From NCBI GenBank assembly GCA_026129095.1, contig JAHCIT010000015.1, positions 1 to 34,870 of the forward strand: a DNA stretch of 34,870 nt, written 5' to 3'. Source of the stretch: Deltaproteobacteria bacterium (GTDB lineage Bacteria > JAGRBM01 > JAHCIT01). Shown here in pieces: positions 899 through 17,684 of this stretch. Made by a program: the position numbers and the translations under genes. Position 1 is the first letter of the stretch. The number at the start of each line of letters is the position of its first letter. The notes under the pieces were generated by a model, which was not told the origin of the DNA, made no database searches, and saw nothing but the letters and a program-made list of their open reading frames with translations.

Positions 899-1168
899 AT
901 GATTCCTCACATGAAGTGTGCGGAGAGCATACGGACTTTGCGAAGGCGGCTGGGACTCTCCCAGAAGGCCGTGGCCATCGAGGCGGACTTAAGACGGCAG
1001 ACGCTGTCTGGAATTGAATCCGGCCGGATCAACCCCACGAAGGTCGAAGCCGGAAAAATCGCAAAAGCTCTCTCCGTGCACACCCGTGAGGTGCTTGCAT
1101 GTCTACGGAATCAGCGTTCCCGTATCTGGACCAGCCGGAAGCAGCTGGACCGGAAGAAGAGACGATAG
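899..1168 (+). CDS. XRE/Cro-CI family helix-turn-helix regulator
   Basis: The protein has 89 residues (85 if translation starts at the ATG at 911). Residues about 9-60 form a typical XRE domain: an IRTLRRRLGLSQKAVA-like first helices segment, a recognition helix around RQTLSGIESGR, then KIAKALSV. The tail is very basic and ends KKRR. Function is probably DNA binding and control of the downstream gene cluster, as with phage CI/Cro-like regulators. The last 70 nt overlap the first codons of the next gene in another frame, an unusually long overlap that couples the two. No clear ribosome-binding site favours either ATG. The family is sure; the role as element repressor is inference from position. 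Confidence 0.8.
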   Translation: MIPHMKCAESIRTLRRRLGLSQKAVAIEADLRRQTLSGIESGRINPTKVEAGKIAKALSVHTREVLACLRNQRSRIWTSRKQLDRKKRR

Positions 1169-2460
1169 AAGCGGACGAAACGGCCGCGGCCGCTGTGAGG
1201 GAACCGGTCAGGCCGTCCAGACCAGTTCCCACCGCGTCCCCGCTCACGCCGGAGGACGAGGAGGTGCTCCGCAAGATCGCCGAATCCCTCGGCGGTAACA
1301 CTGGTGGCAAGCTGTCCCTTCGCCTCCGGCGGTTCAGAAGGGGCGAGGGTCTGAAAAGCATCCGGGCAATTGCCCTGGAACGCTGGATGTTCGAGGACGG
1401 CTTTGATCTCGAAAAGGTGATCGGCGAGCACTATGGCGACGGCAAGTATCACTGGGAAATCCGGAACAGCGGGAAATATTTCAAGTCGGGCGTGTGCGAC
1501 ATCGAGACGTACGGCGCCTTTTCAGGCGACGACGAGGAAGATACGCAAGCTCCAGCGCCCGCCGGGGAACCTGTTCCTGTCGATCTTTCCGGCCTGACGT
1601 CCCGGATCAGGAGCGAGCTTCTGGCTGAACTGCGCCCCAGGGAAACGGCCCAGCCGCAGGTGGATATCGCCGGAATGGTCCGGTCGGCTCTCGAACCCGT
1701 GATCCGGGTTCTGGAATCGAAGGCGACGGAAAAGCAGTCGGATCCGTCCGTCGCGGCTGTTCTGGGACTTCTTTCCCAGCAGAACCAGACGCTGATGACA
1801 CTGATTGGCAAGGCACTGGAGACTCCCAGGGTGAATCCGGCGCCAGCGGCGGCCTCAGACCCGATCGATTCGTTTGGGAAGCTGCTAGACATAGCCAAAC
1901 AGCTCCAGCCGTCCATTTTCCCGATGCCTTCGATGACGGGTGGCAGCGATGACGACGGCTCCGGGGACGATGACGACGAGTTTTTACCGGAATCCCCTGA
2001 ACCTGTTCCAGCCGCATCTCTCGGCCAGCAGTTCCTGGACACGATCAAGGGTTCGGTTGGCCGGGTAGCTGAACAGTTCGTGCTCACAGGTGAAAAGGCC
2101 CTGACCGGCGGCCTTGCGGGTGGTCCTGAAACAGCGGGGCTTTCCGTCGCACCGCCGGCCGCAGCCGTACACCCTGCCCCGTCGGCCCCTCAGAACCCCG
2201 CCACGGTAGTCGAGGCCCTCCTGTGCGGCGTCGAGCAGTGCGTGAAAGAAAAGCGCCCTGTGAGTGAATTCCTGACGGCGCTCACCGCCGGAACGACCCC
2301 GGAGTTCATGGCATCCGCCCGTCAGCTCACCGTCGAGCAGATCACATCGTTTGGAGCGTCCATCGGACGCCCCGACCTCACCGAGCGGTTCCGCCAGCCC
2401 GACGTCCAGAAATACCTCGGCGAGGCCCTGTCGGCCCTCAAGGGAGGTGACGGCAAATGA
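1099..2460 (+). CDS. Hypothetical acidic protein, first gene of the element
   Basis: I do not recognise this 453-residue protein. Residues 1-50 are acidic and Pro/Ala-rich. Residues about 52-145 look folded, with a basic helix (LSLRLRRFRRGEG) and a segment ending GKYHWEIRNSGKYFKSG that reads as a beta-hairpin. A low-complexity acidic stretch (SDDDGSGDDDDEF) follows around residue 280, and the C-terminal 100 residues are helical. The start at 1099 is supported by GAGGTG at 1087-1092 with normal spacing. It overlaps the regulator gene by 70 nt and overlaps the next gene by 4 nt (ATGA), so it is translationally linked to the transglutaminase-like gene. A scaffold, core or DNA-associated virion role is possible but nothing in the sequence proves it. 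Confidence 0.6.
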   Translation: MSTESAFPYLDQPEAAGPEEETIEADETAAAAVREPVRPSRPVPTASPLTPEDEEVLRKIAESLGGNTGGKLSLRLRRFRRGEGLKSIRAIALERWMFEDGFDLEKVIGEHYGDGKYHWEIRNSGKYFKSGVCDIETYGAFSGDDEEDTQAPAPAGEPVPVDLSGLTSRIRSELLAELRPRETAQPQVDIAGMVRSALEPVIRVLESKATEKQSDPSVAAVLGLLSQQNQTLMTLIGKALETPRVNPAPAAASDPIDSFGKLLDIAKQLQPSIFPMPSMTGGSDDDGSGDDDDEFLPESPEPVPAASLGQQFLDTIKGSVGRVAEQFVLTGEKALTGGLAGGPETAGLSVAPPAAAVHPAPSAPQNPATVVEALLCGVEQCVKEKRPVSEFLTALTAGTTPEFMASARQLTVEQITSFGASIGRPDLTERFRQPDVQKYLGEALSALKGGDGK

Positions 2461-3599
2461 ACATTCCTGAAATCCCGGTCCGGCAGATCCCCTACAACAT
2501 GTCCCGGGGCATGAAGGGGACGAAGATCACGCTCGCGCACATGGCGCTGGTCATGTGGAAGACGAGCCATTCGACGCGGCTGGCGAGGTTCGCCCGCGAC
2601 GTGATTTCGCGGGCGAAGATCAGGGAGTACGACCAGCTTGGCGAGATCACGGCGCTCTTCTCATGGGTCCGGCGGAACGTCCGGTATACCCGCGACCCCC
2701 AGAACCACGAATGGCTACAAACGCCGCTCGTCACGGTCCTGTTCGGACACGGGGACTGCGACTGCCAGGCGATGCTTCTGGGGACGCTGCTGATGAGCAT
2801 TGGCTATCCAGTGCGTATCGTCATTGTCGGAAACGCGCCGGACCAGTTCTTTCACGTCTTTCTCGCCGCCCGTTACCGGAAGGACGGACAGGACCAGTGG
2901 ATTGATCTTGATCCCACGGTGGCTGACGGACTTGGCCTCAAGCGCATCTTCGCCGCACGGCGGGAGTTCGACGTCCTGGAACAGGGTGCACTGAAGGAAA
3001 CGAGCACAGCCCCAGCCTACGGCCTCGGGAACTTTCTCGGCGACCTGTTCGCCGGGCCGCCGAAGGTGATCTCGATGAAGGTAGGCTCAAAGGAAATCCG
3101 TGTGCCTTGGAGTGTCCGGGATATTCCGTATGTCTCGGACGCCGAATGGGACAACTGGTTCCGCCAGCTCAAGGAGACCCTGACTCCGGAGGAGATCCTC
3201 CAGGTCGAGGCAGGATTCGACCGGCTGGAGCAGGCAGGGGCGCTTTCGAATAAATCGCCTGAACTCTCCGGCCTCTGGGACAAGGTGAAAAAGGGGCTCA
3301 AGAAAGTGGCCGCCCCGCTGGCCGTCGTCGCCGCTCCCATCACCGGCGGCGCGTCGATCGCGGCCCTTGCAGCCTACAAGGGCGGGAAGGCGATGGCGGG
3401 GAAGAAGGCCGCCGCGCCCGGCCGGGCTTCCAAGGCGCCGCGCACGCCGAAGGCTCCCAAAGCCAGGGCGGAGGTCAAGGCCGACACCCCGGATGCCATT
3501 CCGGCCGTGAAGGCCGAAGCCGGCCGTAACTACCTCCTCATGGGCGGGGGGCTCGCCGCTGCCGGCGGCCTTGCGTACGTCGCCACCCGGGACTCCTGA
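2457..3599 (+). CDS. Transglutaminase-like cysteine protein with C-terminal membrane anchor
   Basis: The protein has 380 residues. Residues about 60-160 match the transglutaminase-like (papain-fold) core: Cys101 in GHGDCDCQA, His133 in FFHVFL and Asp152 in DLDPT form the expected Cys-His-Asp triad. Bacterial members act as proteases, amidases or crosslinkers. The C-terminal third is Ala/Lys/Pro-rich (repeats like KAPRTPKAPKA), with an alanine-rich hydrophobic segment near residues 290-310. The very end (LLMGGGLAAAGGLAYVA then TRDS) reads as a single membrane anchor with a short tail. It overlaps the previous gene by 4 nt. In this cluster it may mature or crosslink a structural protein at the membrane or capsid, or help entry; that role is inferred. 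Fold confidence is good from the triad, substrate unknown. Confidence 0.75.
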   Translation: MNIPEIPVRQIPYNMSRGMKGTKITLAHMALVMWKTSHSTRLARFARDVISRAKIREYDQLGEITALFSWVRRNVRYTRDPQNHEWLQTPLVTVLFGHGDCDCQAMLLGTLLMSIGYPVRIVIVGNAPDQFFHVFLAARYRKDGQDQWIDLDPTVADGLGLKRIFAARREFDVLEQGALKETSTAPAYGLGNFLGDLFAGPPKVISMKVGSKEIRVPWSVRDIPYVSDAEWDNWFRQLKETLTPEEILQVEAGFDRLEQAGALSNKSPELSGLWDKVKKGLKKVAAPLAVVAAPITGGASIAALAAYKGGKAMAGKKAAAPGRASKAPRTPKAPKARAEVKADTPDAIPAVKAEAGRNYLLMGGGLAAAGGLAYVATRDS

Positions 3600-3616
3600 A
3601 AGCGAAAACGTTCACG

Positions 3617-4567
3617 ATGAAGAATTCCCGCCCCGTCACGCTGTCAGTCCGGATCGGCCCCAGGTCGCTGGTGTTTCCATGGTCATCCGGCGCGCTTTCG
3701 CAAAAGTCTGACGGCGAGATCGATGACTGGCTCATGCGCCAGAATCTCTCGGCAGGGGAGCTGGGCACGCTGGCAGAGCTGTTCGGAAGGCTTTCGTGTC
3801 CGAACGAACTCACGCCGCTTGGCGATCCGAACCTGGGGCGCGTGAGCAAGGTGGCCCAACGGCGGCTCCCGCCGCCGGTGGCAAGGCAATTAAGACAGAT
3901 CCAGGCGAGCCGGAAGAAACTGATCGCCGAGCGGAAAGCGCTCGCAAAAGCCCGGTCAGCGGCGCAGGCCGCACAATCGGCCGCAGTGACTGCGCCGCCA
4001 CACGTTTCCCCGTCGCCCGTTTCACTGCCGCCCGCTTCGCCGACTCCGGTTGTTACGGCTGCGCCAGCAGCTGAGCCTCCCAAAAGCCTGGAACCCGTCG
4101 TGGAGCCGCTGATTCCGCCGGTGGAAAGACAGGCGACGATAGCACCGGCACAGTCGCCGGTTACCCAGACGGCTTTCGTTCCGGACTATCTGCCGCCGCC
4201 AGCCGTGCCGCAGGTCGTCGTGCAGGTTCCGCAGATGGTCCAGGCGTCCCCGGCGGCCACTGCGCCGGAGCCGCCTGGACAGGCAGTTTTTGCGCCGCCG
4301 GGCGCCGCCGCTCACGCCGTCCCTTCACCGGCCACGCCGCCAGTGCCCATTGTGCCGGTTCCGGCGGTTTATTCCACTCCAGCATATCGACCGCCGGTTT
4401 ATCCCTATCCGTTAACAGAAGATGACGGCGCGTGGGACGAGGAGGACTATTCCGGCGACTACGAGGAGTTTGGAAACACGGAGCCGCAAAAGACGGTCTT
4501 TGGGGAACTTCTCGCCGGAGCCGGTTTGCTCGGAATGCTCGCCTGGCTGATTGCGAGGAAAACATGA
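3617..4567 (+). CDS. Pro/Ala-rich protein with C-terminal transmembrane anchor
   Basis: This 316-residue protein belongs to no family I recognise. Residues 1-110 appear folded and end in a basic coiled-coil-like helix (IQASRKKLIAERKALAKARSA). Residues about 115-265 are a long disordered Pro/Ala/Val-rich linker. An acidic patch (EDDGAWDEEDYSGDYEE) precedes the C-terminal hydrophobic helix LLAGAGLLGMLAWLIA with basic tail RKT. The layout, soluble domain then flexible stalk then tail anchor, would hold the N-terminal domain away from a membrane. The stop overlaps the next start (ATGA at 4564-4567). It fits a membrane-anchored virion or cell-envelope component. No catalytic motif is visible. Confidence 0.6.
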   Translation: MKNSRPVTLSVRIGPRSLVFPWSSGALSQKSDGEIDDWLMRQNLSAGELGTLAELFGRLSCPNELTPLGDPNLGRVSKVAQRRLPPPVARQLRQIQASRKKLIAERKALAKARSAAQAAQSAAVTAPPHVSPSPVSLPPASPTPVVTAAPAAEPPKSLEPVVEPLIPPVERQATIAPAQSPVTQTAFVPDYLPPPAVPQVVVQVPQMVQASPAATAPEPPGQAVFAPPGAAAHAVPSPATPPVPIVPVPAVYSTPAYRPPVYPYPLTEDDGAWDEEDYSGDYEEFGNTEPQKTVFGELLAGAGLLGMLAWLIARKT

Positions 4568-5217
4568 TCCGGCTCATCACATCGGCAGTGGGACGTCTGG
4601 CCGACACGAAGGCCAGGATCGTGCTGTTGCTCCGGAACCAGTCGGTTCTGGCCCGGCAGACGCAGCGGATCGGGGAGTTTGCCAGACGTCATCCGGAAAT
4701 CCGCGTGGACTGGCTCGCCTACGGCACCGGGATCAGGGAGCTTGAGAGCAGGATCGACAGGATCATTGCCGACGAGACGGCCCTGAGGACTGACTTGAAA
4801 ACCTGGATCGACCGCAACTTCGGCTCCGAACCGGCCGTGAAGATCGATCTGGAGCCGCTCGGCATCCGGAACCTCTCTGGCGAGCTTCCCCTGGAGCCGC
4901 TTCTCAATCTCGGCGACGGCACCGTCACCTCGCTCGCCGGGCGGATATTCGATCTCCAGAGCCGGGTTCGAACAGCACTGGCTCTCATCGACAGCCTGCA
5001 GCACTCGCACGCGGAGACGCTCCGCCGGGTGCGGGAAGTCGTTGCTGGGAAGCCTGAAATCCTCAAGGACCTGGACGGCGTCATCGCCGCCAACGAAGCC
5101 GACCGGATCACCGGCATGGGGACCGATCCGGGCATTTATATCCTGTCGGGCCTTGCCGCGTGGTTTTCGTGGAAACTCTACCGCTGGGCCTCGAAGCCGA
5201 AAGAGACAAGTGCATGA
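4564..5217 (+). CDS. Helical hypothetical protein with C-terminal membrane anchor
   Basis: The protein has 217 residues from the ATG at 4564, which overlaps the preceding stop (ATGA) and has AGGA at 4556-4559. A longer reading from 4432 is unlikely because it would sit inside the previous gene. It is mostly alpha-helical with charged heptad-like segments (residues about 10-90 and 115-185) and ends with a hydrophobic helix GIYILSGLAAWFSWKLY followed by RWASKPKETSA. It is one of several proteins in this cluster with a single C-terminal membrane helix and a basic tail. Function is unknown; a membrane-bound structural or assembly role is inferred only from this topology and its position. Its stop again overlaps the next start. 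Confidence 0.6.
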   Translation: MIRLITSAVGRLADTKARIVLLLRNQSVLARQTQRIGEFARRHPEIRVDWLAYGTGIRELESRIDRIIADETALRTDLKTWIDRNFGSEPAVKIDLEPLGIRNLSGELPLEPLLNLGDGTVTSLAGRIFDLQSRVRTALALIDSLQHSHAETLRRVREVVAGKPEILKDLDGVIAANEADRITGMGTDPGIYILSGLAAWFSWKLYRWASKPKETSA

Positions 5218-5807
5218 AGCCGTATCCGGTCATGGAAGAGAAGGCGGAAGTGGTGCGGATGAATCCGGCAGATGCTCTCGCGCCGTCTGCTGCCGCTGAC
5301 AAAACGCCGGTCTCGCCGCCCCGGAAGGCCGCGAAAACGCGCGTGGGTGCGAACGTCCAGCTCTCGCTCATCGGGCTTCTCAAGGGGCTCGTCTACGTGG
5401 ACGGATACCACCGGCAGATATCCTACACCCCGAAGCGGGCGGTCCTCGTCTGTCAGGCTCCGAACAGGAAACTTGTCTTTGCCTACGGCGCAAGGCCGTC
5501 GAAACTTCCGCACGCGGCCATCTCGTCCGTTGTCCTCTCGAACTTCCAGGAGTTCAACGGCTTCCCGGTCCGCCGGATTCTGGATTCGGTCACGACCCGG
5601 AAATATGGCCAGACGAAATACCTCGGCCAGCTCACCGATATCGTCTACTGGTCGGACAAGTGCATTGACCCCGCAAGCTGCCGTTCGGCGGCCGACTATC
5701 ACCACAGGTTTGAGCCTGAATTTCCCAGGCTTTTCGTCAATCCCGGCGAGCTGCTCCTTCTCGAAGGAGGTTCGTACACCATCACCCGCCGGGGCATCGC
5801 CGGCTGA
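5214..5807 (+). CDS. Hypothetical protein
   Basis: The protein has 197 residues starting at the ATG that overlaps the previous stop (ATGA, 5214-5217). The N-terminal 45 residues are flexible and Ala/Pro-rich. The rest is beta-rich with many aromatic residues (LVYVDGYHRQISYTPKRAV, LVFAYGARPSKLPHAAI), two cysteines in DKCIDPASC and a C-terminal LLLLEGGSYTITRRG. There is no signal peptide or membrane helix and I recognise no family. The tight coupling with the tail-anchored gene before it suggests a shared assembly. Its stop codon forms part of an 18-nt near-palindrome that ends the first gene block. Confidence 0.55.
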   Translation: MKPYPVMEEKAEVVRMNPADALAPSAAADKTPVSPPRKAAKTRVGANVQLSLIGLLKGLVYVDGYHRQISYTPKRAVLVCQAPNRKLVFAYGARPSKLPHAAISSVVLSNFQEFNGFPVRRILDSVTTRKYGQTKYLGQLTDIVYWSDKCIDPASCRSAADYHHRFEPEFPRLFVNPGELLLLEGGSYTITRRGIAG

Positions 5808-5822
5808 AGCGTAGACGCTTCA
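5805..5822. promoter_or_regulatory. Near-palindrome TGAAGCGT-AG-ACGCTTCA at a stop codon
   Basis: Two 8-nt arms are exact reverse complements around a 2-nt centre, and the left arm includes the TGA stop of the preceding gene. A short CCAG-ttgg-CTGG repeat follows. The 77-nt gap to the next gene is the first real break in the gene run. This may be an mRNA processing or stability element or a protein-binding dyad. It lacks a T-run, so it is not a canonical terminator. Confidence 0.3.
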
Positions 5823-5884
5823 CCCAGTTGGCTGGCGAAGCCCGGAGAACCAACCACTAATCACCCCTGAAAAGGAAACCCGCC

Positions 5885-7015
5885 ATGCCCAGCAAGAAGT
5901 CCCGCAAGAACCCCGCCCCGCTCGTTGGGAGCGTCATTGCCAATCCGGCCCTCTACACCAAGCGCCTCAAGGGAGGCGAGAAGGTCTATTTCAACGTTGG
6001 GCAGAACGCGAAGGTCGAGCGGAGCCAGACCCGGCCGCAGTATATCATCGTGACAGCACCACAGGACGCTCCCGGGCGGCCGAAAATGGCGCGCCGCCGC
6101 CCCCCGGCACCGCCCCCTCCGGCCCCGGTGCAGCCGGCTCCTGTGACGCCCCGCCCCGCGCAGCCTCGTCCCATGGCCCCACGCCCCGCACCTGGAGCAC
6201 GGCCCAGGGCAAAGCAATCGAAATCGCACAAAAAGCACCGTCGCCCCAAGCCGCCCTCGCCTGCAACAAGCTACCGTCCGCCGTTCCCGCCCTTTACCCG
6301 GCCTTCGGAACAGACGCGCCAGAACCCGCTCTTTGGCGGCGGCGATAGCGGAGCTGGCGAGATGGCGAAAACCGCCGGCGAGGCCTTGATGGTATTCGTG
6401 GCCCTGGGGCTCGGCATCCCGCTCGTGAAGCGGGTCCTTTTGAACGTCCTCAGGAAACCCGAGGCGGGGCCGGATGGAAAGCCGACGGTCGTTTCGCACG
6501 CCATCCAGGCGGGTCTTGCGGCCATCGCCTTCGGCGCGGCCGGGAAGGCGATAAAGGACTCCACGCTGAAGACTCTCGTCCAGGGAGCAGCCGTGGCGAC
6601 GGCGGTGGCCCCGGCCGTCAATCAGCTCATCGAAAAGATAAAACCCGGTGCGGGGCTGAGGCTCCTTGGGGATCCGGCCGATTCTGCTCCCATCAGCCTC
6701 AATTTCAATGTCGATCCGCTGCCGCTCACCGAAGGCCTTTCGGCTGACCTCCAGGACCTGGATACGAATCCCGCCATCGACCGGATGCTGACGGAAAAGG
6801 CCGCCGATCTGGGCGCTCCGCAGGTGGCCCCGGCCGGTGAGCCGCTGTTCCGCGGACTTGGTTCTCCGCAGGTCGCCCCCGCCAGTGAACCCCTTTTTCG
6901 CGGTCTAGGAGAAGCCGAAGAAAGGCTTCTTGACCCGGCCGACACCGATCCCGCTGGTCCCACATCCATTGCAGCCAGTGAGCCGCTCCATCTCGGGGCG
7001 CTCTACATCAACTGA
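5885..7015 (+). CDS. Pro-rich basic membrane protein with short tandem repeats
   Basis: The protein has 376 residues; AAGGAAACC lies just before the ATG. Order: basic N-terminus (MPSKKSRKNP); beta-like segment to residue 60; a long Pro/Arg/Lys-rich region (about 65-140) able to bind acidic lipid or nucleic acid; a transmembrane helix (LMVFVALGLGIPLV, about 165-180); a second Ala-rich hydrophobic region (about 200-250); then a C-terminal tail with two copies of a 16-residue repeat, APQVAPAGEPLFRGLG and SPQVAPASEPLFRGLG (6815-6910), plus a degenerate third (AASEPLHLGAL). No known family was recognised. A transmembrane virion protein with a nucleic-acid-facing basic arm and peptide hooks for partner binding is a reasonable guess. 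It sits directly upstream of the candidate capsid gene. Confidence 0.55.
   Translation: MPSKKSRKNPAPLVGSVIANPALYTKRLKGGEKVYFNVGQNAKVERSQTRPQYIIVTAPQDAPGRPKMARRRPPAPPPPAPVQPAPVTPRPAQPRPMAPRPAPGARPRAKQSKSHKKHRRPKPPSPATSYRPPFPPFTRPSEQTRQNPLFGGGDSGAGEMAKTAGEALMVFVALGLGIPLVKRVLLNVLRKPEAGPDGKPTVVSHAIQAGLAAIAFGAAGKAIKDSTLKTLVQGAAVATAVAPAVNQLIEKIKPGAGLRLLGDPADSAPISLNFNVDPLPLTEGLSADLQDLDTNPAIDRMLTEKAADLGAPQVAPAGEPLFRGLGSPQVAPASEPLFRGLGEAEERLLDPADTDPAGPTSIAASEPLHLGALYIN
6815..6910 (+). repeat. Tandem 48-bp coding repeat (two copies)
   Basis: Two in-frame 48-nt units encode APQVAPAGEPLFRGLG and SPQVAPASEPLFRGLG. The nucleotide copies have diverged mainly at third positions, so the repeat is kept at protein level. 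A partial third copy (AASEPLHLGAL) lies near the C-terminus. Confidence 0.8.
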
Positions 7016-7043
7016 ACCACCCCAACCAAAGGAAACCACAGTC

Positions 7044-7877
7044 ATGAACGACACCGACAATCTCTACGGACAGCTCCACGGCCTCTACGGCGACGAAGGC
7101 ATGAGGGAGATCGAGCCTGAACTGGGTGCGATGCCCCCGGCCGAGCAGAAGAAGGTCGCCCGGCACCTGGTGCGCCAGGGGCGCCTCATGCGGCTAGCGG
7201 CCCGGAAAAGCGTCGCCGACGAGCAGAAGACAAGGCGCATCGGCGGCTTCGACGAGGAAAACGTCATTCGCGACTGGGCGCGCCGCAAGGGAATCCCCTT
7301 CGAGCGGCTCAAGATCGAGAACGTCCGGTGGTTCCACCGCCGGTATGTGGACATCGGGACTCCGGCGGGCCTCCAGACGTCGCGCTACGCCTTCTTCAGC
7401 GAGGTGCCCAAGCCCGGCGCCCAGGACACGAACTTCGACATGTGGGGCGAGTGGCCGCAGACGACGCTCGTTCTGCTCCGGGGGATCATGAGCCAGGTGC
7501 TCATCCACTCGCTCGGCGCGGCGCCGGTCGACCGGTCGGCCAGCGGCTACCTCTCGATGGTGCAGCGGTTTCTGCACCACGCGACGGTCTCCTACAAGGT
7601 GGACCAGTCGACGACGGTGACGCAGCTCCTGAAAAACCTGCCCCCGGCGGGCGGAGCCAACGTTGTGAATATCCGCGACGAGTCGAATGGCTATCCGGAG
7701 GCGAACAATCTCCGGACATTCAAGCGCCCCGTCGTGATCGAGGGCGGCATCCAGTACCTGATCGAGATGAACGTCGATACCGGCTCGTTCCATAACGGCG
7801 GCACGCCGGTCTATACCGACTGCGTCCTCGACACGGTCCTTGAGCTCGATGCCACCTGGATCCGCCAGGCCGGGTAA
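7044..7877 (+). CDS. Beta-rich structural protein, candidate major capsid protein
   Basis: The protein has 277 residues from the ATG at 7044, preceded by AAAGGAAACC; longer readings would run back into the previous gene. The first 80 residues are helical and charged. The remainder alternates short hydrophobic strands with Gly/Pro/Asn turns, for example VDIGTPAGLQTSRYAFF, TTLVLLRGIMSQVLIHS and, near the end, VVIEGGIQYLIEMNVDTG followed by VLDTVLELDATWIRQ. This pattern and length (close to the 269 residues of PM2 P2) would fit a small jelly-roll capsid protein. It is followed by a structured intergenic region and further beta-rich genes. No homologue was recognised by eye, so the capsid call is inference. 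A spike or minor protein is the main alternative. Confidence 0.45.
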   Translation: MNDTDNLYGQLHGLYGDEGMREIEPELGAMPPAEQKKVARHLVRQGRLMRLAARKSVADEQKTRRIGGFDEENVIRDWARRKGIPFERLKIENVRWFHRRYVDIGTPAGLQTSRYAFFSEVPKPGAQDTNFDMWGEWPQTTLVLLRGIMSQVLIHSLGAAPVDRSASGYLSMVQRFLHHATVSYKVDQSTTVTQLLKNLPPAGGANVVNIRDESNGYPEANNLRTFKRPVVIEGGIQYLIEMNVDTGSFHNGGTPVYTDCVLDTVLELDATWIRQAG

Positions 7878-8028: not shown

Positions 8029-8052
8029 CCCTCCTTACCAAGGAAACCGGTC

Positions 8053-10321: not shown

Positions 10322-10965
10322 ACAACCAGTATGACCACCTGATACGCCAGTTCGCCACGCGGCCGGACTTCCCGCCCCATTTTGTCAAGGGAATGATCCA
10401 CGTGGAAAGCGCCTTCAGGGCGGACGCAAGGGGCCCGGGCGGCGAACTGGGTCTGATGCAGTTTCTCGCATCCACGGCGAAAACGCTCGGCGTGGATCAC
10501 GCGTCGCTCGTGAATCCCGAGGCGGCCATCAGGGCCGGAACCCGCTACATAGCCCAGATCATCGACAAGTACGTGACGCCGAACCTTAAGGTCCCCATTC
10601 ATCCGCAGCTCAGGATCAGGTTCGTGCAGTTTGCCTACAACGCCGGCCCTTTGTTCACGGTGAGGCTCCTGAAGCGCTTCGGGGCAGATGCCGCCACCCT
10701 GTCCAGTCCCGGCTCCTTCAATCGCATGGTTGACACGCTGAAGGGCGATCCGGATGTACTGCGGCTCCAGAAGCTCACCAGGGAGGCCGATTTTCTGGCC
10801 GCCCGGAAGAAGGTCGTGGAGCGGTATCAGTACTGGGCCGGGCAGTATGCGAAAGACTTCGGCACAAACCCCGGCGCGAACCCACCGGCAGCCGTCCAGG
10901 CCTCCATGCCCCTCATCCCGCTCGCCATCGTGGGAGCCGCCTATCTCATCTGGAAACGGAAATGA
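10318..10965 (+). CDS. SLT-family lytic transglycosylase with C-terminal membrane anchor
   Basis: The protein has 215 residues. The lysozyme-like SLT fold is clear: catalytic Glu30 in HVESAF, GLMQF at 45-49, then NPEAAIRAGTRYI and AYNAGP near residue 105. Such enzymes cleave the MurNAc-GlcNAc bond of peptidoglycan to form anhydro sugars. There is no signal peptide; instead the protein ends with a hydrophobic helix (MPLIPLAIVGAAYLIW) and KRK. A tail-anchored transglycosylase is what a membrane-containing virion could carry for cell-wall penetration; PRD1 P7 is a known membrane-associated virion transglycosylase. It overlaps both neighbours by 4 nt. Enzyme family secure, particle location inferred. 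Confidence 0.85.
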   Translation: MNNQYDHLIRQFATRPDFPPHFVKGMIHVESAFRADARGPGGELGLMQFLASTAKTLGVDHASLVNPEAAIRAGTRYIAQIIDKYVTPNLKVPIHPQLRIRFVQFAYNAGPLFTVRLLKRFGADAATLSSPGSFNRMVDTLKGDPDVLRLQKLTREADFLAARKKVVERYQYWAGQYAKDFGTNPGANPPAAVQASMPLIPLAIVGAAYLIWKRK

Positions 10966-11267
10966 CCCCCATGACGGACCTGCTCGAAATCCTGAACTCC
11001 AAGGTGGCCGTCGGCCTCTTTTCTGGCCTCTTTTCGATCCTGGGCGTGCTGGTCGGAAGCTACGTGCGCAGCTTCACCGACGAGCGCATCGAGCAGAAAC
11101 TGAAGCCGCTGCTCGAACGTTTGTGGCAGATCGAATCGAAGATCGCCGAAATACTCCGCGACGTGGTCGAAATACGAAAAGGCCAGGAAACAATGGACGA
11201 TCACCGCCGCCGGATCGAACGCCTCGAGAACCGCTCCATGTCGTCAAACGGCAATCATCGCCCATAG
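10962..11267 (+). CDS. Small membrane protein with coiled-coil tail
   Basis: The protein has 101 residues (98 if the ATG at 10971 is used) and overlaps the transglycosylase stop by 4 nt. A single transmembrane helix (VAVGLFSGLFSILGVLVGSYV, about 15-35) is followed by a charged helix with heptad spacing (ERIEQKLKPLLERLWQIESKIAEILRDV) to residue 75 and a further helical region. Its place between two peptidoglycan hydrolases suggests a lysis accessory such as a holin or spanin-like protein. There is no lipobox, so it is not an o-spanin. Function inferred only from topology and context. Confidence 0.6.
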   Translation: MTPMTDLLEILNSKVAVGLFSGLFSILGVLVGSYVRSFTDERIEQKLKPLLERLWQIESKIAEILRDVVEIRKGQETMDDHRRRIERLENRSMSSNGNHRP

Positions 11268-11276
11268 GAGGTAACC

Positions 11277-11696
11277 ATGCCGGTCGTCATCAGTTTCAAG
11301 ACCGCCGCCCTGAATCCGGACCTCGCAAAAATCGACAGCCGCATCAAAGCGCTCATCTTCGAGGCGGCGGACTGGCTCGCCCGCCTGAATCTTTCCCTTA
11401 CCATCACCTGTTTGCTCAGGGACCGGGCGACGCAGGAGGCCATTTTTCAGAAAGCCCGAAGCATCGGCGCCAGGGAACCCATTCGCTCGCCGCACGAGGA
11501 CGGCCGGGCGGTGGATATTTCCATTAAAGGGTTTTCCGAAGAGATTATCACCGGGCTTGTGGATCACCTGAATGAAACTTTCCCCTACGAGGGAAACCGT
11601 CTTTATAAAACGGCCATCCGCCATGACGTGGGACAAGGCGACCACATCCATATCCAGGTGGCCCCGCCTGCGGGCCGCTGGGGAGTCGCTGCGTGA
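11277..11696 (+). CDS. M15-like peptidase, endolysin candidate
   Basis: The protein has 139 residues and a perfect AGGAGG-type ribosome-binding site just before the ATG. The M15/VanY-like zinc motif is visible: His73 and Asp80 in SPHEDGRAVD, and His123-x-His125 in GDHIHIQV. Family members cut peptidoglycan stem peptides (D,D-carboxypeptidase or L-Ala-D-Glu endopeptidase, as in phage T5 endolysin). No signal peptide or cell-wall-binding domain is present, so it would need a holin to leave the cytoplasm. It lies between small membrane proteins. Its stop overlaps the next start by 4 nt (GTGA). Peptidase family good; exact bond cut unknown. Confidence 0.78.
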   Translation: MPVVISFKTAALNPDLAKIDSRIKALIFEAADWLARLNLSLTITCLLRDRATQEAIFQKARSIGAREPIRSPHEDGRAVDISIKGFSEEIITGLVDHLNETFPYEGNRLYKTAIRHDVGQGDHIHIQVAPPAGRWGVAA

Positions 11697-12475
11697 GTCT
11701 GGGCGGTTTTTACATGCTGCCCGGCGAGTCCGGGCCATCTGGACCGTCTGGACGTATGCCGGAAAGTCTTGAGCTTTCCGGCCTTACCGACTGGCTCACT
11801 TCGCCGGTCGAGCAGACGAAAAGGCTTATATCCGAGCGGGCCGCCCAGAAGGCCAGGGAAGAGATACAGAAGAAGGAAAACGAGAAGGCCGAGTGGGAAC
11901 GGACCGGGCAGCCGTGGTCGAAGAAGGCAGACACTCTTCTCACGGCCGCCAAATGGGGCGTCATTACCATCCCCCTCGGTATCGTCGCCGTGTCTTTAAT
12001 GCCGCTTTTCAGGGGTGCTGGTACAGCACTTGGCGGAACCGGCGCGGCCCTCTCTGGCATCGGAGCCGCCACGAAGGAAAGTGCGGCTTCGGTGCAGGCG
12101 GCAAGAGAGTCCTTAACCCGCCGGAACCCGGCCAGTGTCCGGTACAGTGAAAAGTGGACGCTCCTCCGGCGGCTCGGAGACCGCTACTGGCAGCTCGCCG
12201 GCTCGCACCCGGGCAAAAGCCGGCAGCGGGAGTTTTTCCTTGGTGTGTCGGAAGGGATCCACGAGGCCTCCGAACTCGCCCGGACAGAAAATGCGCGCCG
12301 TTATCTCCGCCGCCGGGCATCGCCGAAGCTGAAAAGCCTTGCGAGGGGCCGTCTCGTGGCGGCCCGCCAGGGCAACAGCCTCCTCCGGAGCCGTCTGGAC
12401 GGACGCCACCGCGGCCTTCTCGTCGCCACGGCATTTCTTGCCGACCCTCAAGCGTCGTTCCCGGTCTTTGGCTGA
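11693..12475 (+). CDS. Hypothetical membrane protein
   Basis: The protein has 260 residues from GTG at 11693, overlapping the previous stop; an ATG at 11714 would give a slightly shorter product. The N-terminal 25 residues are Gly/Pro/Ser-rich. A charged helix (about 38-70, many Lys/Glu) precedes a hydrophobic segment (WGVITIPLGIVAVSLMPLF, about 84-103) and a Gly/Ala-rich stretch resembling a fusion-like or membrane-lying peptide (GTALGGTGAALSGIGAA). The last 130 residues are basic and helical with many Arg. No family recognised. A membrane-bound, nucleic-acid-facing component is possible; the sequence shows no catalytic motif. Confidence 0.55.
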   Translation: MSLGGFYMLPGESGPSGPSGRMPESLELSGLTDWLTSPVEQTKRLISERAAQKAREEIQKKENEKAEWERTGQPWSKKADTLLTAAKWGVITIPLGIVAVSLMPLFRGAGTALGGTGAALSGIGAATKESAASVQAARESLTRRNPASVRYSEKWTLLRRLGDRYWQLAGSHPGKSRQREFFLGVSEGIHEASELARTENARRYLRRRASPKLKSLARGRLVAARQGNSLLRSRLDGRHRGLLVATAFLADPQASFPVFG

Positions 12476-12526
12476 TGCCACGGACCGTCATCCCCTCAAC
12501 CACCACCAAAAGGAGTGTTTGCAAAC

Positions 12527-12760
12527 ATGGAAACCATCAAACCCGGCCTCAAGACATCCGAGGGCAGGCTCACGCTGATCGCCATCCTCGTGCCCATCCT
12601 GATGCCGGTCGTGAAGGCGATTTTCGGCAAGTTCGGCCTCCACCTCGACGTCGATGCCAGTACGGTGAGCACGGCGCTGCTCGCCAACGCCGGAGTGACC
12701 GGGGCCTATGCCGCCGGCCGCTCCTACGTGAAGGCCACGGCGATGAAGGTGCTGGAGTAG
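12527..12760 (+). CDS. Small two-helix membrane protein, holin-like
   Basis: The protein has 77 residues from the ATG at 12527, with AGGAG at 12511-12515. It has one clear transmembrane helix (LIAILVPILMPVVKAIF) and a second weaker Ala/Gly-rich helix (VSTALLANAGVTGAYAAG) followed by RSYVKA. Size, topology and location one gene after the M15 peptidase fit a holin or similar pore-forming lysis protein. Holins share little sequence, so the call rests on topology and context. A small virion membrane protein is the main alternative. Confidence 0.5.
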   Translation: METIKPGLKTSEGRLTLIAILVPILMPVVKAIFGKFGLHLDVDASTVSTALLANAGVTGAYAAGRSYVKATAMKVLE

Positions 12761-12788
12761 TCAGAAAAGACGCGCTGCGGAGTAACCG

Positions 12789-13196
12789 ATGCTCTGGGAA
12801 CTTAACAGACTGACAAACGTGCGGCTCGGGCCTTCGAAGGTCTGGGTCTCGCCGGTTCATCGCATAAATTCCCTGATGATCCAGAGCTTCGGAACGGGAG
12901 CGGATTTCGATCAGTACAACTCCGGGCAGGTGGCCCTGGAAGGGACGAACTGGTCCTGGGCCGAGGCCGGTTTTGCCAGCGAGGCCGCCTGGAAAGCTTC
13001 ACAAGCTCCGCAGCGCGTCTGGCTTCCAATCGATATACCGTCCGGTACCCCGTGGGTATTTGATGGAACGCCGGCAAAGCTTGCCTGCTATCTCGACCGT
13101 CTGCCGAGGTTCATACGCCTGAGGGAAACCGGCACGCTCACCGCAGGTAATTTCATCGACCTCGCCATCCACGCGAGGCTCTTTGGCGACCGGTGA
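12789..13196 (+). CDS. Small beta-rich hypothetical protein
   Basis: The protein has 135 residues, with GGAG at 12779-12782 before the ATG. It contains many Trp and aromatic residues (WVSPVHRINSLMIQSF, NWSWAEAGFASEAAW) and reads as a compact beta protein. There is no membrane helix, signal peptide or known motif. It begins the block of three genes that ends with the two MGFPG proteins, so it may be part of the same surface structure. Function unknown. Confidence 0.5.
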   Translation: MLWELNRLTNVRLGPSKVWVSPVHRINSLMIQSFGTGADFDQYNSGQVALEGTNWSWAEAGFASEAAWKASQAPQRVWLPIDIPSGTPWVFDGTPAKLACYLDRLPRFIRLRETGTLTAGNFIDLAIHARLFGDR

Positions 13197-13206
13197 GACC
13201 GGCGAG

Positions 13207-13695
13207 ATGGGATTCCCCGGCAATGGCGCTGAAAACACCGGCGGGCGAATCCTCGTTCACCGGGAAACGCAAATAAGCTGGTCCACGGGGACCGGCACAA
13301 ACACAGGGCCCGACGGCTCGATCGACTGGGTGAAAACAAGTGGCCTCTACCGCCTCGTCTTCCACTGCGCCGTCATGCAGGCCACAGGCACCCACAACGC
13401 CATCACGATCCGGGTCCAGACCGGCCAGCCGCTCGTGGCCACCAATCGCCTCACAGGAGTCCGGCGGACGGTCGCCGCCGCAGGTGCGGCGTTCATGACC
13501 TGGACCAGGGGAGCGGCAGTTGTTCAGGGCGACTTTGCGGCCTTCGAGAGCGGAGATATCCAGATGTACGCGGACGAATTTCTCCTGACCCAGCGGCTTG
13601 GCGGCGGAACGGCCTTTGCTTTCCGCGCCGTCTCGACCGGCGGTTCGGGCTCCGGAATCGGAAACAGTTCTGGCTGGTGGCTTTTGCCGGTATAA
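13207..13695 (+). CDS. Spike-like beta protein with MGFPG N-terminus
   Basis: The protein has 162 residues from the ATG at 13207; a longer TTG start at 13183 would overlap the previous gene and remove the shared N-terminus. It begins MGFPGNGAENTGG, closely resembling the start of the next protein (MGFPGTSENADGG). The body is Gly/Thr/Ser-rich and beta-sheeted; the piece around SGLYRLVFHCAVMQ and NAITIRVQ recalls C1q/TNF-like jelly-roll heads by pattern only. No catalytic motif. With its neighbour it may form receptor-binding or vertex spikes attached through the common N-terminal peptide. This is inference; the sequence similarity of the two N-termini is observed. Confidence 0.5.
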   Translation: MGFPGNGAENTGGRILVHRETQISWSTGTGTNTGPDGSIDWVKTSGLYRLVFHCAVMQATGTHNAITIRVQTGQPLVATNRLTGVRRTVAAAGAAFMTWTRGAAVVQGDFAAFESGDIQMYADEFLLTQRLGGGTAFAFRAVSTGGSGSGIGNSSGWWLLPV

Positions 13696-13700
13696 GAAAC

Positions 13701-14717
13701 ATGGGATTCCCTGGAACATCCGAAAATGCGGACGGCGGTGCGCCGGAACTGGACCTGGAAGAGGCCGGCGAGGCCGTGACGGTCGACTGGACGCTTTCCC
13801 ATAAACAGGCCGTCACGGCCGGTGTCGATACGGTCTTTTCGTTCATTGCGCCACCAGCTGCCGGATCCGATCTCACGCTCCGCATCCGGCGCGGCGCCAC
13901 TTCTCCCACGGCGCTCTATTTCCCCTCAAGCTGCCGGTGGCCGGGAGGTTTTTCACCCGTTTTCGACTTTTCCGGTCCGGACAATATCCAGCTCGTCCGC
14001 ATCTACTACGACGGAGTGAGCTATCACTGCCGGACGGTTGCGGGTTTAAAAAAACTCCCGCCCGGGGTGAACCTCGCCGGCTATAGCGAGACGCGGATAT
14101 CGTTTGGCTATCCGTCGCTTTCATTGAATGCCGGAACCGGCCCAAGCCGCATCGCCTTTCTCGTCTTCAACGAGGTTTATAACACCTTCCTCGGCCCTGT
14201 GGGCAGCATCAGTTTCGCCGGGCAGCCCATGACAAGGCTCGTTCCGCCGTCGGACGACTACCGGGGGCTCCAGGTCTTTTTTCAGGTAAACCCTCCATCA
14301 GGCCTCGGTTTCTTCACCTTCACCGGTTTCAGTACGGCTGGATACCTCCTCCAGGCGTTTGTCCTGACCGGCTTAAACCAGGCGAATCCCGTGGAAACCG
14401 ACGACAGCCGGGTGGTGGCTGACGACTATGCCAATCCTTTCCACATCGGGACCATCCCGCCCTCATCCGGTTCTGACCGGTTTTTCCTGAACATCGCTTC
14501 CAGTTTCAACGGCGCCTACGGCGGTCCCTACAGTCCCGTCGATGGCCAGACGGTGAAAATCTTCGAGCAGGCTTTCCCGGGCCCCGAGCATTACCGCCGG
14601 CAGATTTGCGGCCTTCTGGGCCCCATCAATCCTCCCGGCTACCGCGAGACCGTCTGGCAGGGCTTAAGCGGCTTCGGAACCCGCATCGAGCGCCGGATTC
14701 TCCTGAACCCGGCCTGA
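13701..14717 (+). CDS. Larger spike-like beta protein with MGFPG N-terminus
   Basis: The protein has 338 residues from the ATG at 13701, 5 nt after the previous stop. The N-terminus MGFPGTSENADGG matches that of the upstream protein, after which the sequences diverge. Residues about 30-125 form one beta-rich region (TLRIRRGATSPTALYF) and the remainder another, with many Gly/Pro/Phe residues (GLGFFTFTGFSTAGYLLQAFV). No enzyme motif or membrane segment. This is the last apparently structural gene; the following genes are DNA-related. Host recognition or a vertex spike is plausible from position, the shared attachment-like N-terminus and composition, but no family was recognised. Confidence 0.5.
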   Translation: MGFPGTSENADGGAPELDLEEAGEAVTVDWTLSHKQAVTAGVDTVFSFIAPPAAGSDLTLRIRRGATSPTALYFPSSCRWPGGFSPVFDFSGPDNIQLVRIYYDGVSYHCRTVAGLKKLPPGVNLAGYSETRISFGYPSLSLNAGTGPSRIAFLVFNEVYNTFLGPVGSISFAGQPMTRLVPPSDDYRGLQVFFQVNPPSGLGFFTFTGFSTAGYLLQAFVLTGLNQANPVETDDSRVVADDYANPFHIGTIPPSSGSDRFFLNIASSFNGAYGGPYSPVDGQTVKIFEQAFPGPEHYRRQICGLLGPINPPGYRETVWQGLSGFGTRIERRILLNPA

Positions 14718-14738
14718 ACGGCCCGAAAGGATTCAGCC

Positions 14739-15947
14739 ATGTCCGAACCGTTACTGGAATGCCGCATCGACCGAAACCAGTGGATCTGGAGCGGAAAGCT
14801 TCTGGGCAAAAAGGCCGCCGACAGGCTTGCCGGGCGGATGTTCGAGACCTGGCAAAGATTGAATGCCATGTGGCCAGGGATGCCTCAGAACGTGGAACGG
14901 ATGATCGTAATGGAGGAGGAAAAACTCCGGATTGTGCTGACGAAGCCGCCAAGGCGGTTCTCTTGGGGAGACGATCAAATCGGCATCGTGAACGGCTTCG
15001 ACGTGACGGTGGTGACCGAAGACGGGATATTCACCCCGCAGCAGCGGGCGGCCTATCTGCGGCTCTACGGTCAATGGCACCTTCGCCGGGCAATCGATGT
15101 GGCGCACACCGGCGGCCACTCGATGGCATTGATCCCAAGCCATGAGCCTTATGAAGCGAGTGACGAGGACCTGGAACTGGCGAAGCAGGCCGTGGGCTCT
15201 CTCTTTGCGGCAAAAGACCCGGACATGGCACTGGAAGTCTGCCCTCCCAGCGGAGAATACGAGGAGCAGTTCCCATCGAGGCGTCCGGATCCAGGGCTAA
15301 TCGAGCGCGACATTCTGGCGGCGCGGGCACTCTTGCCGTCAGTCGAAAAGGTGCTGTCCGGCAAGGAATCGCTTCGCCTCATGGAGCGAATCGAGGTGCG
15401 TCTCGCCTTCAGCACCCATCATGCCGCCCGGATCATCGAAGTCGCCCGTTCCATCGCCGCTCTCGACAGGGAAACGATCATCAGCCCGGCGCACCTCGCT
15501 GAAGCAGTACAGTACGCCCCGCCGGAGTGGCGCGGCCGGAAGAACCCCGGCGATGACGACGGATTCGACGGCTTCTGGGGCAAACCGGTCAGCGTCTATA
15601 CGCGGGCGCAGGCAATCGCCGACGGGACGCTCGTGGATCTGTCGGCAATCGTTCCCGACGTCTGCCTCCAGCACTACAAATACCCCATAGCCTGCACGGC
15701 CGCCGTCTGGGCTATCATCGACGCCGCCGTCCGCAGCAAGCACCACATGAACAGCGTTGCCGGAATCGTCCACGACATCCTCTGGATGAGCCGCGTCTAC
15801 AGGCGCCAGCTTTCGCCCGATACCGTCATCACGCGCGTGGCCATTACCGGCGCGGGCAGGAAGAAAGTCTACGGCTTCAAGTTAGTTGCCGGACCGGGCG
15901 ACGACGCCGGGCCCGTCATCACGATCATGCTGCCCGGGGAGGACTAG
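14739..15947 (+). CDS. Fusion of a ComM C-terminal-like helical domain and DUF6573
   Basis: The protein has 402 residues. Residues 1-130 are unrecognised. Residues about 205-265 (RIIEVARSIAALDRETI, then SPAHLAEAVQYAPP) match the C-terminal helical lid of ComM/Mg-chelatase AAA proteins, but no Walker A or B motif precedes it, so the ATPase core is absent. Residues about 280-340 match DUF6573, a small domain I recall from phages and plasmids (SVYTRAQAIADGTLVDLS, then YKYPIACTAAVW). The remaining tail is basic and beta-like. A DNA-related accessory role is likely from the next two genes. Only 2 nt separate its stop from the clamp gene. Domain matches are by eye. Confidence 0.6.
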   Translation: MSEPLLECRIDRNQWIWSGKLLGKKAADRLAGRMFETWQRLNAMWPGMPQNVERMIVMEEEKLRIVLTKPPRRFSWGDDQIGIVNGFDVTVVTEDGIFTPQQRAAYLRLYGQWHLRRAIDVAHTGGHSMALIPSHEPYEASDEDLELAKQAVGSLFAAKDPDMALEVCPPSGEYEEQFPSRRPDPGLIERDILAARALLPSVEKVLSGKESLRLMERIEVRLAFSTHHAARIIEVARSIAALDRETIISPAHLAEAVQYAPPEWRGRKNPGDDDGFDGFWGKPVSVYTRAQAIADGTLVDLSAIVPDVCLQHYKYPIACTAAVWAIIDAAVRSKHHMNSVAGIVHDILWMSRVYRRQLSPDTVITRVAITGAGRKKVYGFKLVAGPGDDAGPVITIMLPGED

Positions 15948-15949
15948 TT

Positions 15950-17203
15950 ATGGAATATGTTAACCCTGCCCGACCTTTGCTCATTTATCGGGTCATTGGC
16001 GGCGACTGGGTCTGGGGCGGCGCTCTGGCCGCCAACGCCAACAGGACAAAGGCCGACGAGGCCGCCGCGTGGGTAAAGTTCGCCTGGGATGGGGTTACGC
16101 AGGCGGAACCAGGTGAAATAGCCGGGAATATCCGGTCCATCGCCCTCGTTGCCGAAGGCGAGATCGAGATGGGCGTGGAAGGGCTCCGCCGGCCGAGACA
16201 AATCAACTACGTCCCCGGCCTCAAGATCCGCCTGATACCGGTGGCCACGGCCCACGCAGCGCCCGCGTTGGAAGCTTATCGGTCTGTCGTGGAACGCGGC
16301 GGATGGGCTCCCCCTGACGACACTCCAGCCCGAACGCTTTACCGTGCACTGGAGCGTGTTTCTCACAGCGCGGTCCACTCGAAAGAGGACGCCAACCGCG
16401 CCATGCGGCTCTCGAACGTGGCCTTTGAACGGGACGGCAGCGACATCCTCGTACTCACGACCGACGGCCACCGGCTCACGCTCCACCGGCTGGTGGGCTT
16501 TGCAAAGTACGTGAGCCGGTTACCGAAAGCCGATACGATCGTGCCCATCGCGGAGCTGAAAGCGCTCCTGCCGAAGCTGAAAACCGCCCGCAATGTCCAG
16601 ATCGACCTGTCCAGTCACGAGGGCGAACCGCAGGTCTATAATTACGGCTTCCAGGGGAGCTACGGCCCGGCGCTCGCCGATGCTTTTAGCGGCGCCATCG
16701 TCATCGATGGGGAGAGTTTTCATATCCCTGTTGTGAAGCACGAGTTTCTTGAATGGCGGCATGTTTTTCCGAAGCCTGAATGGAACGTGACGGTTGATTC
16801 TGGCGAACTGCTCGCCGCCATTTCGGACCTTTATGCCAGATGGTCCGAGACGATGAAAAACCGCCCCAAGCGCTCAGGGAAGAAAGAGCCTTCCGGGCGG
16901 CTCCAGTTCGACAGGAAGTCGGTACACATCGAGATCACGCCGGATATTCCGGATAAACCCGACACCTGCTCCGCCACTCTTTTGTCGTCCGGCATCAGCC
17001 AGAACCGGCCTGCGAGGTTTTACATGAACTTCCGGTACCTGAGGGACGCCTTGAGGCTGCTTCACGGACCGGTGGTGATCGCCGGCGAGAACGGCGGCAC
17101 GAACTCCATAGACGGCAATTCCTATCTCGTGAAGCCGGTAAGCCTTCTCGATCCTTCCGGACCTACCGAAATCCTCATCATGCCCATGCATCCGCCCCGC
17201 TAG
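15950..17203 (+). CDS. Divergent DnaN-like sliding clamp
   Basis: The protein has 417 residues, with GGGGAGGA just upstream of the ATG. Residues about 125-182 resemble domain II of the bacterial beta clamp (ALERVSHSAVHSKEDANRAM, then LVLTTDGHRLTLHRL, compare ATDGHRLA in DnaN). The C-terminus (RFYMNFRYLRDALRLL, then EILIMPMHPPR) resembles domain III and the family ending around MPMRL. The first 110 residues are much less like domain I and may be replaced. Beta clamps encircle DNA as dimers and tether polymerases and repair proteins. Here no polymerase is seen, so it may recruit host Pol III or other clamp-binding enzymes to element DNA. It sits between the DUF6573 fusion and RadC. Confidence 0.72.
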   Translation: MEYVNPARPLLIYRVIGGDWVWGGALAANANRTKADEAAAWVKFAWDGVTQAEPGEIAGNIRSIALVAEGEIEMGVEGLRRPRQINYVPGLKIRLIPVATAHAAPALEAYRSVVERGGWAPPDDTPARTLYRALERVSHSAVHSKEDANRAMRLSNVAFERDGSDILVLTTDGHRLTLHRLVGFAKYVSRLPKADTIVPIAELKALLPKLKTARNVQIDLSSHEGEPQVYNYGFQGSYGPALADAFSGAIVIDGESFHIPVVKHEFLEWRHVFPKPEWNVTVDSGELLAAISDLYARWSETMKNRPKRSGKKEPSGRLQFDRKSVHIEITPDIPDKPDTCSATLLSSGISQNRPARFYMNFRYLRDALRLLHGPVVIAGENGGTNSIDGNSYLVKPVSLLDPSGPTEILIMPMHPPR

Positions 17204-17222
17204 AACGTAAAAGGAGTTCGCC

Positions 17223-17684
17223 ATGGAAGCCGCCGTCACTCCCGGAACCGTTTACTGGGTCCGGTGCGTCCTTGAGCGCCAGAAAGGCATCGGCGGCAAA
17301 CCCGCCGGACGGCTCTCCAACTCCCAGTCCGCTGTGAAGCTGCTGGAGTTCATCCGGAACACCGACCGGGAGCATATTGTCACGATCTCCCTCTCGACGA
17401 AGAACGAGCCGCTCGCCATCTCCGTCGAGGCGATCGGCAGCACGAACTCCGTAAAGTCCGGTCCTGCAGAGCTGTTCCGGGTGCCGATCCTTGCCGGGGC
17501 TGTCGGAATCATCATCGGCCACAACCATCCCTCCGGAGACCCCTCTCCGTCGTCCGCCGACCGGCTGTACACGCAGGACGTGGCTGCCTCGGCGAAGCTG
17601 CTCGGCATCAGGCTGATCGATCACATCATCGTCGCGCCGGGCAGCGCCTATTACAGCTTTCTGGACGAGGGGGCGCTGGCCTGA
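17223..17684 (+). CDS. RadC-type JAMM-domain protein, short form
   Basis: The protein has 153 residues, with AAAAGGAG just before the ATG. The RadC JAMM motif is complete: His100 and His102 in GHNHPSGD and Ser110/Asp113 in PSSAD, with an upstream Glu50 in DREHIV. The usual N-terminal helix-hairpin-helix DNA-binding region of full RadC (about 220 residues) is missing, as in many plasmid and phage copies. The biochemical function of RadC is unsettled; such proteins are frequent on mobile elements. It follows the clamp gene by 19 nt and ends the + strand cluster. It is unrelated in detail to the JAMM peptidase at the left edge, which has the shorter MPN architecture. Confidence 0.85.
   Translation: MEAAVTPGTVYWVRCVLERQKGIGGKPAGRLSNSQSAVKLLEFIRNTDREHIVTISLSTKNEPLAISVEAIGSTNSVKSGPAELFRVPILAGAVGIIIGHNHPSGDPSPSSADRLYTQDVAASAKLLGIRLIDHIIVAPGSAYYSFLDEGALA

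Follow-up and report, generated by a model that had tools for sequence, protein, structure and literature searches.

A predicted tailless provirus related to SSIP-1 in a deltaproteobacterial contig, and its uncultured relatives

We analyzed a 34,870-bp stretch of DNA (the window), which is the entire contig C15 (JAHCIT010000015.1) of a metagenome-assembled genome (MAG) of a Deltaproteobacteria bacterium (GCA_026129095.1; 3.67 Mb in 23 contigs), and found that the 22 consecutive, often slightly overlapping plus-strand open reading frames (ORFs) at 899-17684 are best read as a tailless provirus, predicted to contain a membrane, of the kind of phage SSIP-1. Judged from sequence, we give this reading a probability of about 83%, with capsid fold, membrane and packaging being predictions. 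The original prediction had proposed a non-tailed, membrane-containing phage-like element of about 20 co-directional, overlapping genes, and this remains the best-supported interpretation; the relative that emerged is SSIP-1 and not Tectiviridae, Corticoviridae or FLiP, whose logic had been invoked. Its statement that no gene has an obvious homologue was almost right: in plain similarity searches, SSIP-1 is found with the transglutaminase-like gene only.

A gene order shared with SSIP-1 and uncultured loci

SSIP-1, a Salisaeta phage from a salt lake, is described as unclassified, icosahedral and tailless, with an internal membrane and two capsid proteins (PMC4958249, PMC5332951, PMC6356626), and reviews place it alongside sphaerolipoviruses. 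According to PMC6356626, its genome "hardly shares any similarity" with GenBank. The passages found that name the phage mention no genomic relatives, which may be reported in other papers.

A tblastn search of the transglutaminase-like protein (2457-3599) against 50,697 phage records returned SSIP-1 gp34 as the best and sole strong match (E = 4e-7), next to a marginal match in an archaeal pleomorphic virus. In a search with shuffled decoys, the two proteins matched with 4e-12, above every decoy, and both carry a C-terminal anchor. GenBank annotates gp34, gp43 and gp44-48 of SSIP-1 as structural, in an order that matches the window block: the transglutaminase (gp34) is followed by the conserved module that we call RGI (C-terminus of gp43), a basic protein with transmembrane (TM) segments (gp44) and the capsid slots (gp45/46). 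In addition, SSIP-1 gp54 resembles the anchored transglycosylase of the element (10318-10965), with a weak SLT match (0.0054) and a TM segment at residue 172 of 197.

The same order was found in uncultured genomes. A two-sequence transglutaminase profile searched against 386 genomes gave its top match on a contig of bacterium Dive96_bin1.91 (L045; G258:C46, JAJRTR010000076) with an E-value of 5e-27, the runner-up being at 2.5e-12. This 11.2-kb MAG contig, from another rare phylum (7 genomes in the collection searched), encodes the transglutaminase, five C-terminally anchored proteins, RGI, the basic TM protein, the capsid-slot protein and beta-rich proteins, in this order; its beta protein differs in being a two-domain repeat. 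A three-sequence profile found two further loci in IMG/VR. One (L055/L060, IMGVR_UViG_3300027760_000117) is a record of 16,582 bp with a 99-bp direct terminal repeat, so that the complete genome is a circle of 16,483 bp. It resembles the element in block order and length, and contains the entire block together with an endolysin, an Rz spanin, an SLT protein, a DUF1376 primosomal protein and a helix-turn-helix (HTH) regulator; endolysin, spanin and DUF1376 gene take the place of the M15 peptidase, clamp and RadC set of the element. Neither terminase, portal, HK97 capsid nor tail genes were found in it by PHROGs and Pfam. The other (L057) is part of a 105-kb IMG/VR record, on which the genes for the transglutaminase, the anchored proteins, RGI and the capsid-slot protein follow one another in order. 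The order is common to SSIP-1 and four uncultured loci (C22, described below, for part of it).

A 21.4-kb viral contig (L058, IMGVR_UViG_3300038301_000339) encodes a transglutaminase among many C-terminally anchored proteins as well as helicase- and polymerase-like genes; it probably comes from a larger relative, with the capsid genes beyond the contig ends. L007, from a T7-like phage, proved to match by chance, and weak matches in G038 and G343 were dropped because of in-frame stops.

Strength of homology and a second copy

The homology to the relatives, as judged from sequence comparisons, is strong for the transglutaminase and RGI and moderate for 8053-8532. In the transglutaminase-like domain the catalytic Cys and His are invariant in 6 relatives, and 2457-3599 is 41% identical to the L055 protein over 104 amino acids and 31% to that of L045. 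For RGI (5214-5807), a profile made from L045, L055 and L057 only gave 1.3e-7 in hhalign (best decoy 0.013) and 1.2e-5 in hmmsearch (best decoy 1.8). Its match to the C-terminus of gp43 is weak, with 3.6e-4 in phmmer, 0.098 in hmmsearch and 0.1 when a two-sequence profile was run against more decoys. The module is free-standing in the element, whereas it is fused to a 2,320-amino acid protein in SSIP-1; the L055 version (7121-7708) has an N-terminal stretch matching several PHROGs of unknown function and DUF6321, which the window version lacks.

The slot of 5885-7015 corresponds to L055 7752-8417, L045 2764-3375 and gp44. The L045/L055 profile of this slot has gp44 as its top match (E = 0.019-0.022) and misses 5885-7015, which is therefore assigned by order and TM content only. 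Likewise, 7044-7877 occupies the slot of gp45/46 and of the capsid-slot proteins of L045, L055 and L057, and all of these share the motif FF...DTN....G..P; the relatives' profile matched gp45/46 with 0.03. For 8053-8532, a profile of relatives (L055 and two proteins of L045) aligned over 102 columns with an E-value of 9e-4 in hhalign (best reversed decoy 0.11; next real matches at or above 0.022), and in hmmsearch it ranked the C22 copy first (0.010) and 8053-8532 second (0.026; best decoy 0.095). An AlphaFold2 (AF2) model of this protein, of moderate confidence (predicted local distance difference test, pLDDT, 62; predicted TM-score, pTM, 0.61), is an eight-strand beta-sandwich, for which Foldseek returned weak, generic jelly-roll-like matches (TM-score on the query at most 0.50) to infectious bursal disease virus VP2 and to TNF/C1q, CUB and CBM folds.

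Searches by exact peptide patterns gave no match for 7044-7877 in IMG/VR and GTDB, nor for 8053-8532 and the transglycosylase in IMG/VR; the motif pattern DTN[ML]...G.LP.P had zero IMG/VR matches. Such patterns are insensitive, so that absence from these collections says little, and exact-match scans miss elements of this sort. A tblastn search of 7044-7877 against phages and plasmids returned nothing real, and a single PDB sequence search showed no similarity to solved capsid proteins of Helvetiavirae.

A second copy of the block is present on contig C22 of the same assembly (6,376 bp), a contig that could in principle be mis-binned. It is colinear with 4879-11255, and the DNA of the two is about 68-83% identical. 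Every reading frame is open, the proteins are 42-75% identical, and the ratio of nonsynonymous to synonymous changes (pN/pS) is 0.33-0.68; by this comparison the block is maintained and mobile, with the second copy under purifying selection. The protein of 7044-7877 is the best conserved (75% identity; nonsynonymous divergence, dN, 0.19) and that of 9353-10321 changes fastest (42% identity), with its C-terminus RGTRIPRDI[FY]RTFGEL kept. These extremes would fit a capsid protein and a receptor-facing protein, respectively.

Virion proteins of L055 (7 versus 1.4 expected), L045 (5 versus 1.1) and SSIP-1 (6 versus 2.2) contain the tripeptide [KRE]NP more often than expected, whereas it is absent from SSIP-1 gp2-32 and not enriched in the window (2 versus 1.2). 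It is possibly a maturation site for the transglutaminase-like enzyme, an idea that we chose post hoc from the sequences.

Packaging, weighing of the interpretation and proposed mechanism

As stated in the original prediction, tailed-phage hallmarks are missing: PHROGs and Pfam revealed no terminase, portal, HK97 capsid, tube or tape measure protein across the window. The absence of a packaging ATPase was also borne out, as neither 1-17700 nor the circular relative showed an ATPase with a credible Walker-A motif.

Several observations weigh against the reading as an SSIP-1-like provirus. First, gp40 of SSIP-1 is predicted to be a packaging ATPase (PMC4124505), and none was found in the element; we take this lack as a difference between groups, and therefore claim the element only as a related variant of the SSIP-1-like group. 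Second, 7044-7877 is not significantly similar to relatives outside its own assembly (0.14 in hhalign, equal to decoys) and its AF2 model is unusable (pLDDT 38.6), so that its designation as major capsid protein is positional. Third, transglutaminase-like domains also occur elsewhere: with the profile of this domain, 40 of the 386 genomes reach 1e-5, almost all of them by weak matches, and among five such loci inspected, block neighbours were present in L045 only. Because these domains are widespread, the gene alone cannot define membership. Fourth, links to SSIP-1 beyond gp34 are weak (0.1 for gp43, 0.02 for gp44), and in a pairwise search of the window genes against SSIP-1 only the gp34 homologue was significant. 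Finally, neither an integrase (Pfam on window proteins) nor attachment repeats (repeat search) were found. SSIP-1 is also larger (44 kb versus about 16.8 kb) and has, in our reading of its sequence, an integrase-like gp13 and a resolvase-like gp3 that the element lacks.

Instead, the block might be what remains of such a phage after the host has domesticated it as a particle or in the manner of a gene-transfer agent, with replication and packaging of its genome lost. This would account for intact genes under purifying selection, for host-type genes on the right flank and for the failure to find an integrase, a packaging ATPase or an own replicase in 899-17684. We consider this improbable. Since the complete circular relative also combines the block with a lack of the ATPase, the gap is not a sign of decay; moreover, the two copies differ by 25-58% in protein, which fits two infections better than one conserved host organ, and the sole same-order genome searched has neither the transglutaminase gene nor the 7044 gene.

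Absence of a packaging ATPase is a stated feature of the Odin and FLiP groups (PMC5894146), tailless elements with a double-jelly-roll capsid, and their modest genome size is similar. An element of that kind unrelated to SSIP-1 is nevertheless very unlikely: the Odin genomes (7-11 kb) encode ParB and PD-(D/E)XK nucleases, which Pfam did not find here, and the M13-like rolling-circle Rep of the FLiP group has no match in the element by Pfam or PHROGs. Transglutaminase goes unmentioned in PMC5894146, and the significant homologue is that of SSIP-1. Other established groups differ in packaging as well. Tectiviridae and Corticoviridae combine a double-jelly-roll capsid with an FtsK/HerA ATPase, whereas the element has neither this ATPase nor a capsid match in Pfam or PHROGs. 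Helvetiavirae (Sphaerolipoviridae sensu lato, P23-77, SH1) have two vertical single-jelly-roll capsid proteins and an internal membrane, the design ascribed to SSIP-1 in the literature and proposed for the element, and an FtsK/HerA-type ATPase that the element does not encode.

The block is scarcely credible as a tailed phage in divergent or reduced form, as a satellite or as a decayed prophage. A lytic transglycosylase (here matching several tailed-phage PHROGs), an M15 peptidase and beta-rich genes resembling fibres are usual in tailed phages too, but they are outweighed by the lack of any head-neck-tail gene in the contig or the 16.5-kb circular relative and by a conserved series of C-terminal membrane anchors foreign to tailed virions.

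Returning to an SSIP-1-like provirus, we infer a membrane, the geometry of the capsid, what the proteins do and a route of packaging for which the element encodes no P-loop ATPase. The 5885-7015 product and the tail-anchored proteins (2457, 3617, 4564 and 10318) would be embedded in a vesicle of host-membrane origin, around which the 7044 and 8053 proteins may build capsomers. The transglutaminase-like domain might cross-link or process virion proteins at the membrane, and the anchored transglycosylase might open peptidoglycan during entry. The products of 9353-10321 and 12789-14717 are candidates for spikes or vertices, and the 10962 and 11277 products would lyse the host cell. Recruitment of the host replisome is suggested by the clamp-like and RadC genes, and the DUF6573 gene may take part in it.

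We see an even chance that a single undescribed lineage of tailless membrane phages, at the level of a family or order, unites SSIP-1, the window element, C22, L045, L055 and L057 across distant bacterial phyla, and that in it a branch with circular double-stranded DNA of roughly 16-17 kb has lost, or never had, the ATPase and packages otherwise. Such an ATPase-less branch would join the few jelly-roll-type groups with unexplained packaging. The relatives in other phyla, one of them complete, small and circular, define a minimal block and would turn an orphan, SSIP-1, into a group, in which it becomes testable what the transglutaminase-like, RGI and tail-anchored proteins do. The element is also a virus candidate for a sparsely sampled phylum, represented by two genomes in the collection searched, including the present MAG.

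Gene content and surroundings of the element

Table 1 Features of the predicted provirus (positions in the window)
Position	Strand	Feature	Basis
899-1168	+	XRE/Cro-type HTH regulator, first element gene	Pfam HTH_3 5.8e-12
1099-2460	+	453-aa protein, slot just before transglutaminase (SSIP-1 gp33 slot)	Position only
2457-3599	+	Transglutaminase-like protein (cysteine-peptidase fold), C-terminal membrane anchor; SSIP-1 gp34 homologue	Pfam Transglut_core 3.2e-8; TM at 360/380
3617-4567	+	Proline-rich, C-terminally anchored putative virion-membrane protein	TM at residue 297/316
4564-5217	+	Putative tail-anchored protein	Hydrophobic C-terminus YILSGLAAWFSWKLYRW, under TM threshold applied to other anchors
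5214-5807	+	RGI protein, conserved C-terminal module	Profile of L045, L055, L057
5885-7015	+	Basic N-terminus, two TM segments; SSIP-1 gp44 slot	TM at 165 and 202; position
7044-7877	+	Putative major capsid protein, 277 aa	Slot, shared motif, conservation
8053-8532	+	Putative second capsid/capsomer protein, 159 aa, single beta-sandwich	Relatives' profile; AF2 model
8548-9348	+	Presumed virion protein, 266 aa	In block of both copies, 50% identical
9353-10321	+	Presumed virion protein, 322 aa, candidate spike/vertex	Fastest evolving
10318-10965	+	Tail-anchored SLT lytic transglycosylase, cf. SSIP-1 gp54	Pfam SLT 2.3e-16; TM at 191/215
10962-11267	+	Small N-terminal-TM protein, holin/spanin-like candidate	TM near residue 10; between transglycosylase and peptidase
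11277-11696	+	M15-type peptidase, putative endolysin	Sub-threshold Pfam Peptidase_M15_2; HEDGRAVDIS / GDHIHIQ metal-site motifs
11693-12475	+	TM-containing protein	TM at residue 90
12515-12760	+	Small TM protein, GTG start	TM at residue 21
12789-13196, 13183-13695, 13677-14717	+	Three beta-rich-looking genes, candidate spike/receptor-binding proteins	Position after lysis genes; function inferred
14739-15947	+	Mg_chelatase_C + DUF6573 protein	Pfam 2.2e-7 and 3.1e-15
15950-17203	+	Sliding-clamp (DNA polymerase III beta)-like protein	PHROG DNA polymerase processivity factor 4.8e-5; Pfam 4.6e-4, sub-cut-off
17223-17684	+	RadC-like JAB protein, last element gene	Pfam RadC 1.6e-29

The genes of the element are listed in Table 1. 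Pfam, PHROGs and TM prediction confirmed the lysis enzymes, tail-anchored proteins and small DNA module that had been noticed in the sequence. The products of 2457-3599, 3617-4567 and 10318-10965 each carry a hydrophobic anchor at the C-terminus, and a similar, weaker segment ends 4564-5217, the C-terminal part of which is also present in C22. Tail-anchored neighbours occupy slots matching that of 3617-4567 in L045, L055, L057, L058 and SSIP-1. The HTH regulator is a generic feature that SSIP-1 and the circular relative have too, and the 1099-2460 protein had no significant sequence match to L055 268-1389 or gp33 in the same slot. Pfam gives nothing for most remaining proteins; neither Pfam nor PHROGs matched 8548-9348 or the three genes of 12789-14717, nothing exceeded the curated cut-off for 12515-12760, and 10962-11267 had weak matches to PHROGs, all of unknown function. 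The DUF6573 part of 14739-15947 is 48-50% identical to plasmid proteins; this domain is frequent on conjugative plasmids of Xanthomonas and Acinetobacter and is fused here with an Mg-chelatase C-terminal domain.

The size of about 16.8 kb follows from the flanking genes, a CBASS-like end on the left and a secreted-protein gene on the right, with the right edge between 17684 and the start of the signal-peptide gene at 17883/17943. Positions 1-770 lie outside the element and belong to a CBASS-like operon, of which the start of the contig leaves only the distal part; an E1-E2 protein C-terminus (PADLOC 6.7e-22) and a JAB protein (2.6e-58) resemble CBASS type II and adjoin the predicted provirus. 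On the other side, 17883-27575 encodes a secreted protein of 3,230 amino acids with CBM96, FG-GAP, PKD, Kelch and HYDIN/ASH-like Ig domains. It is followed at 27579-34477 by four minus-strand host-type genes, among them a PMT_2-like glycosyltransferase and a PKD/beta-helix protein.

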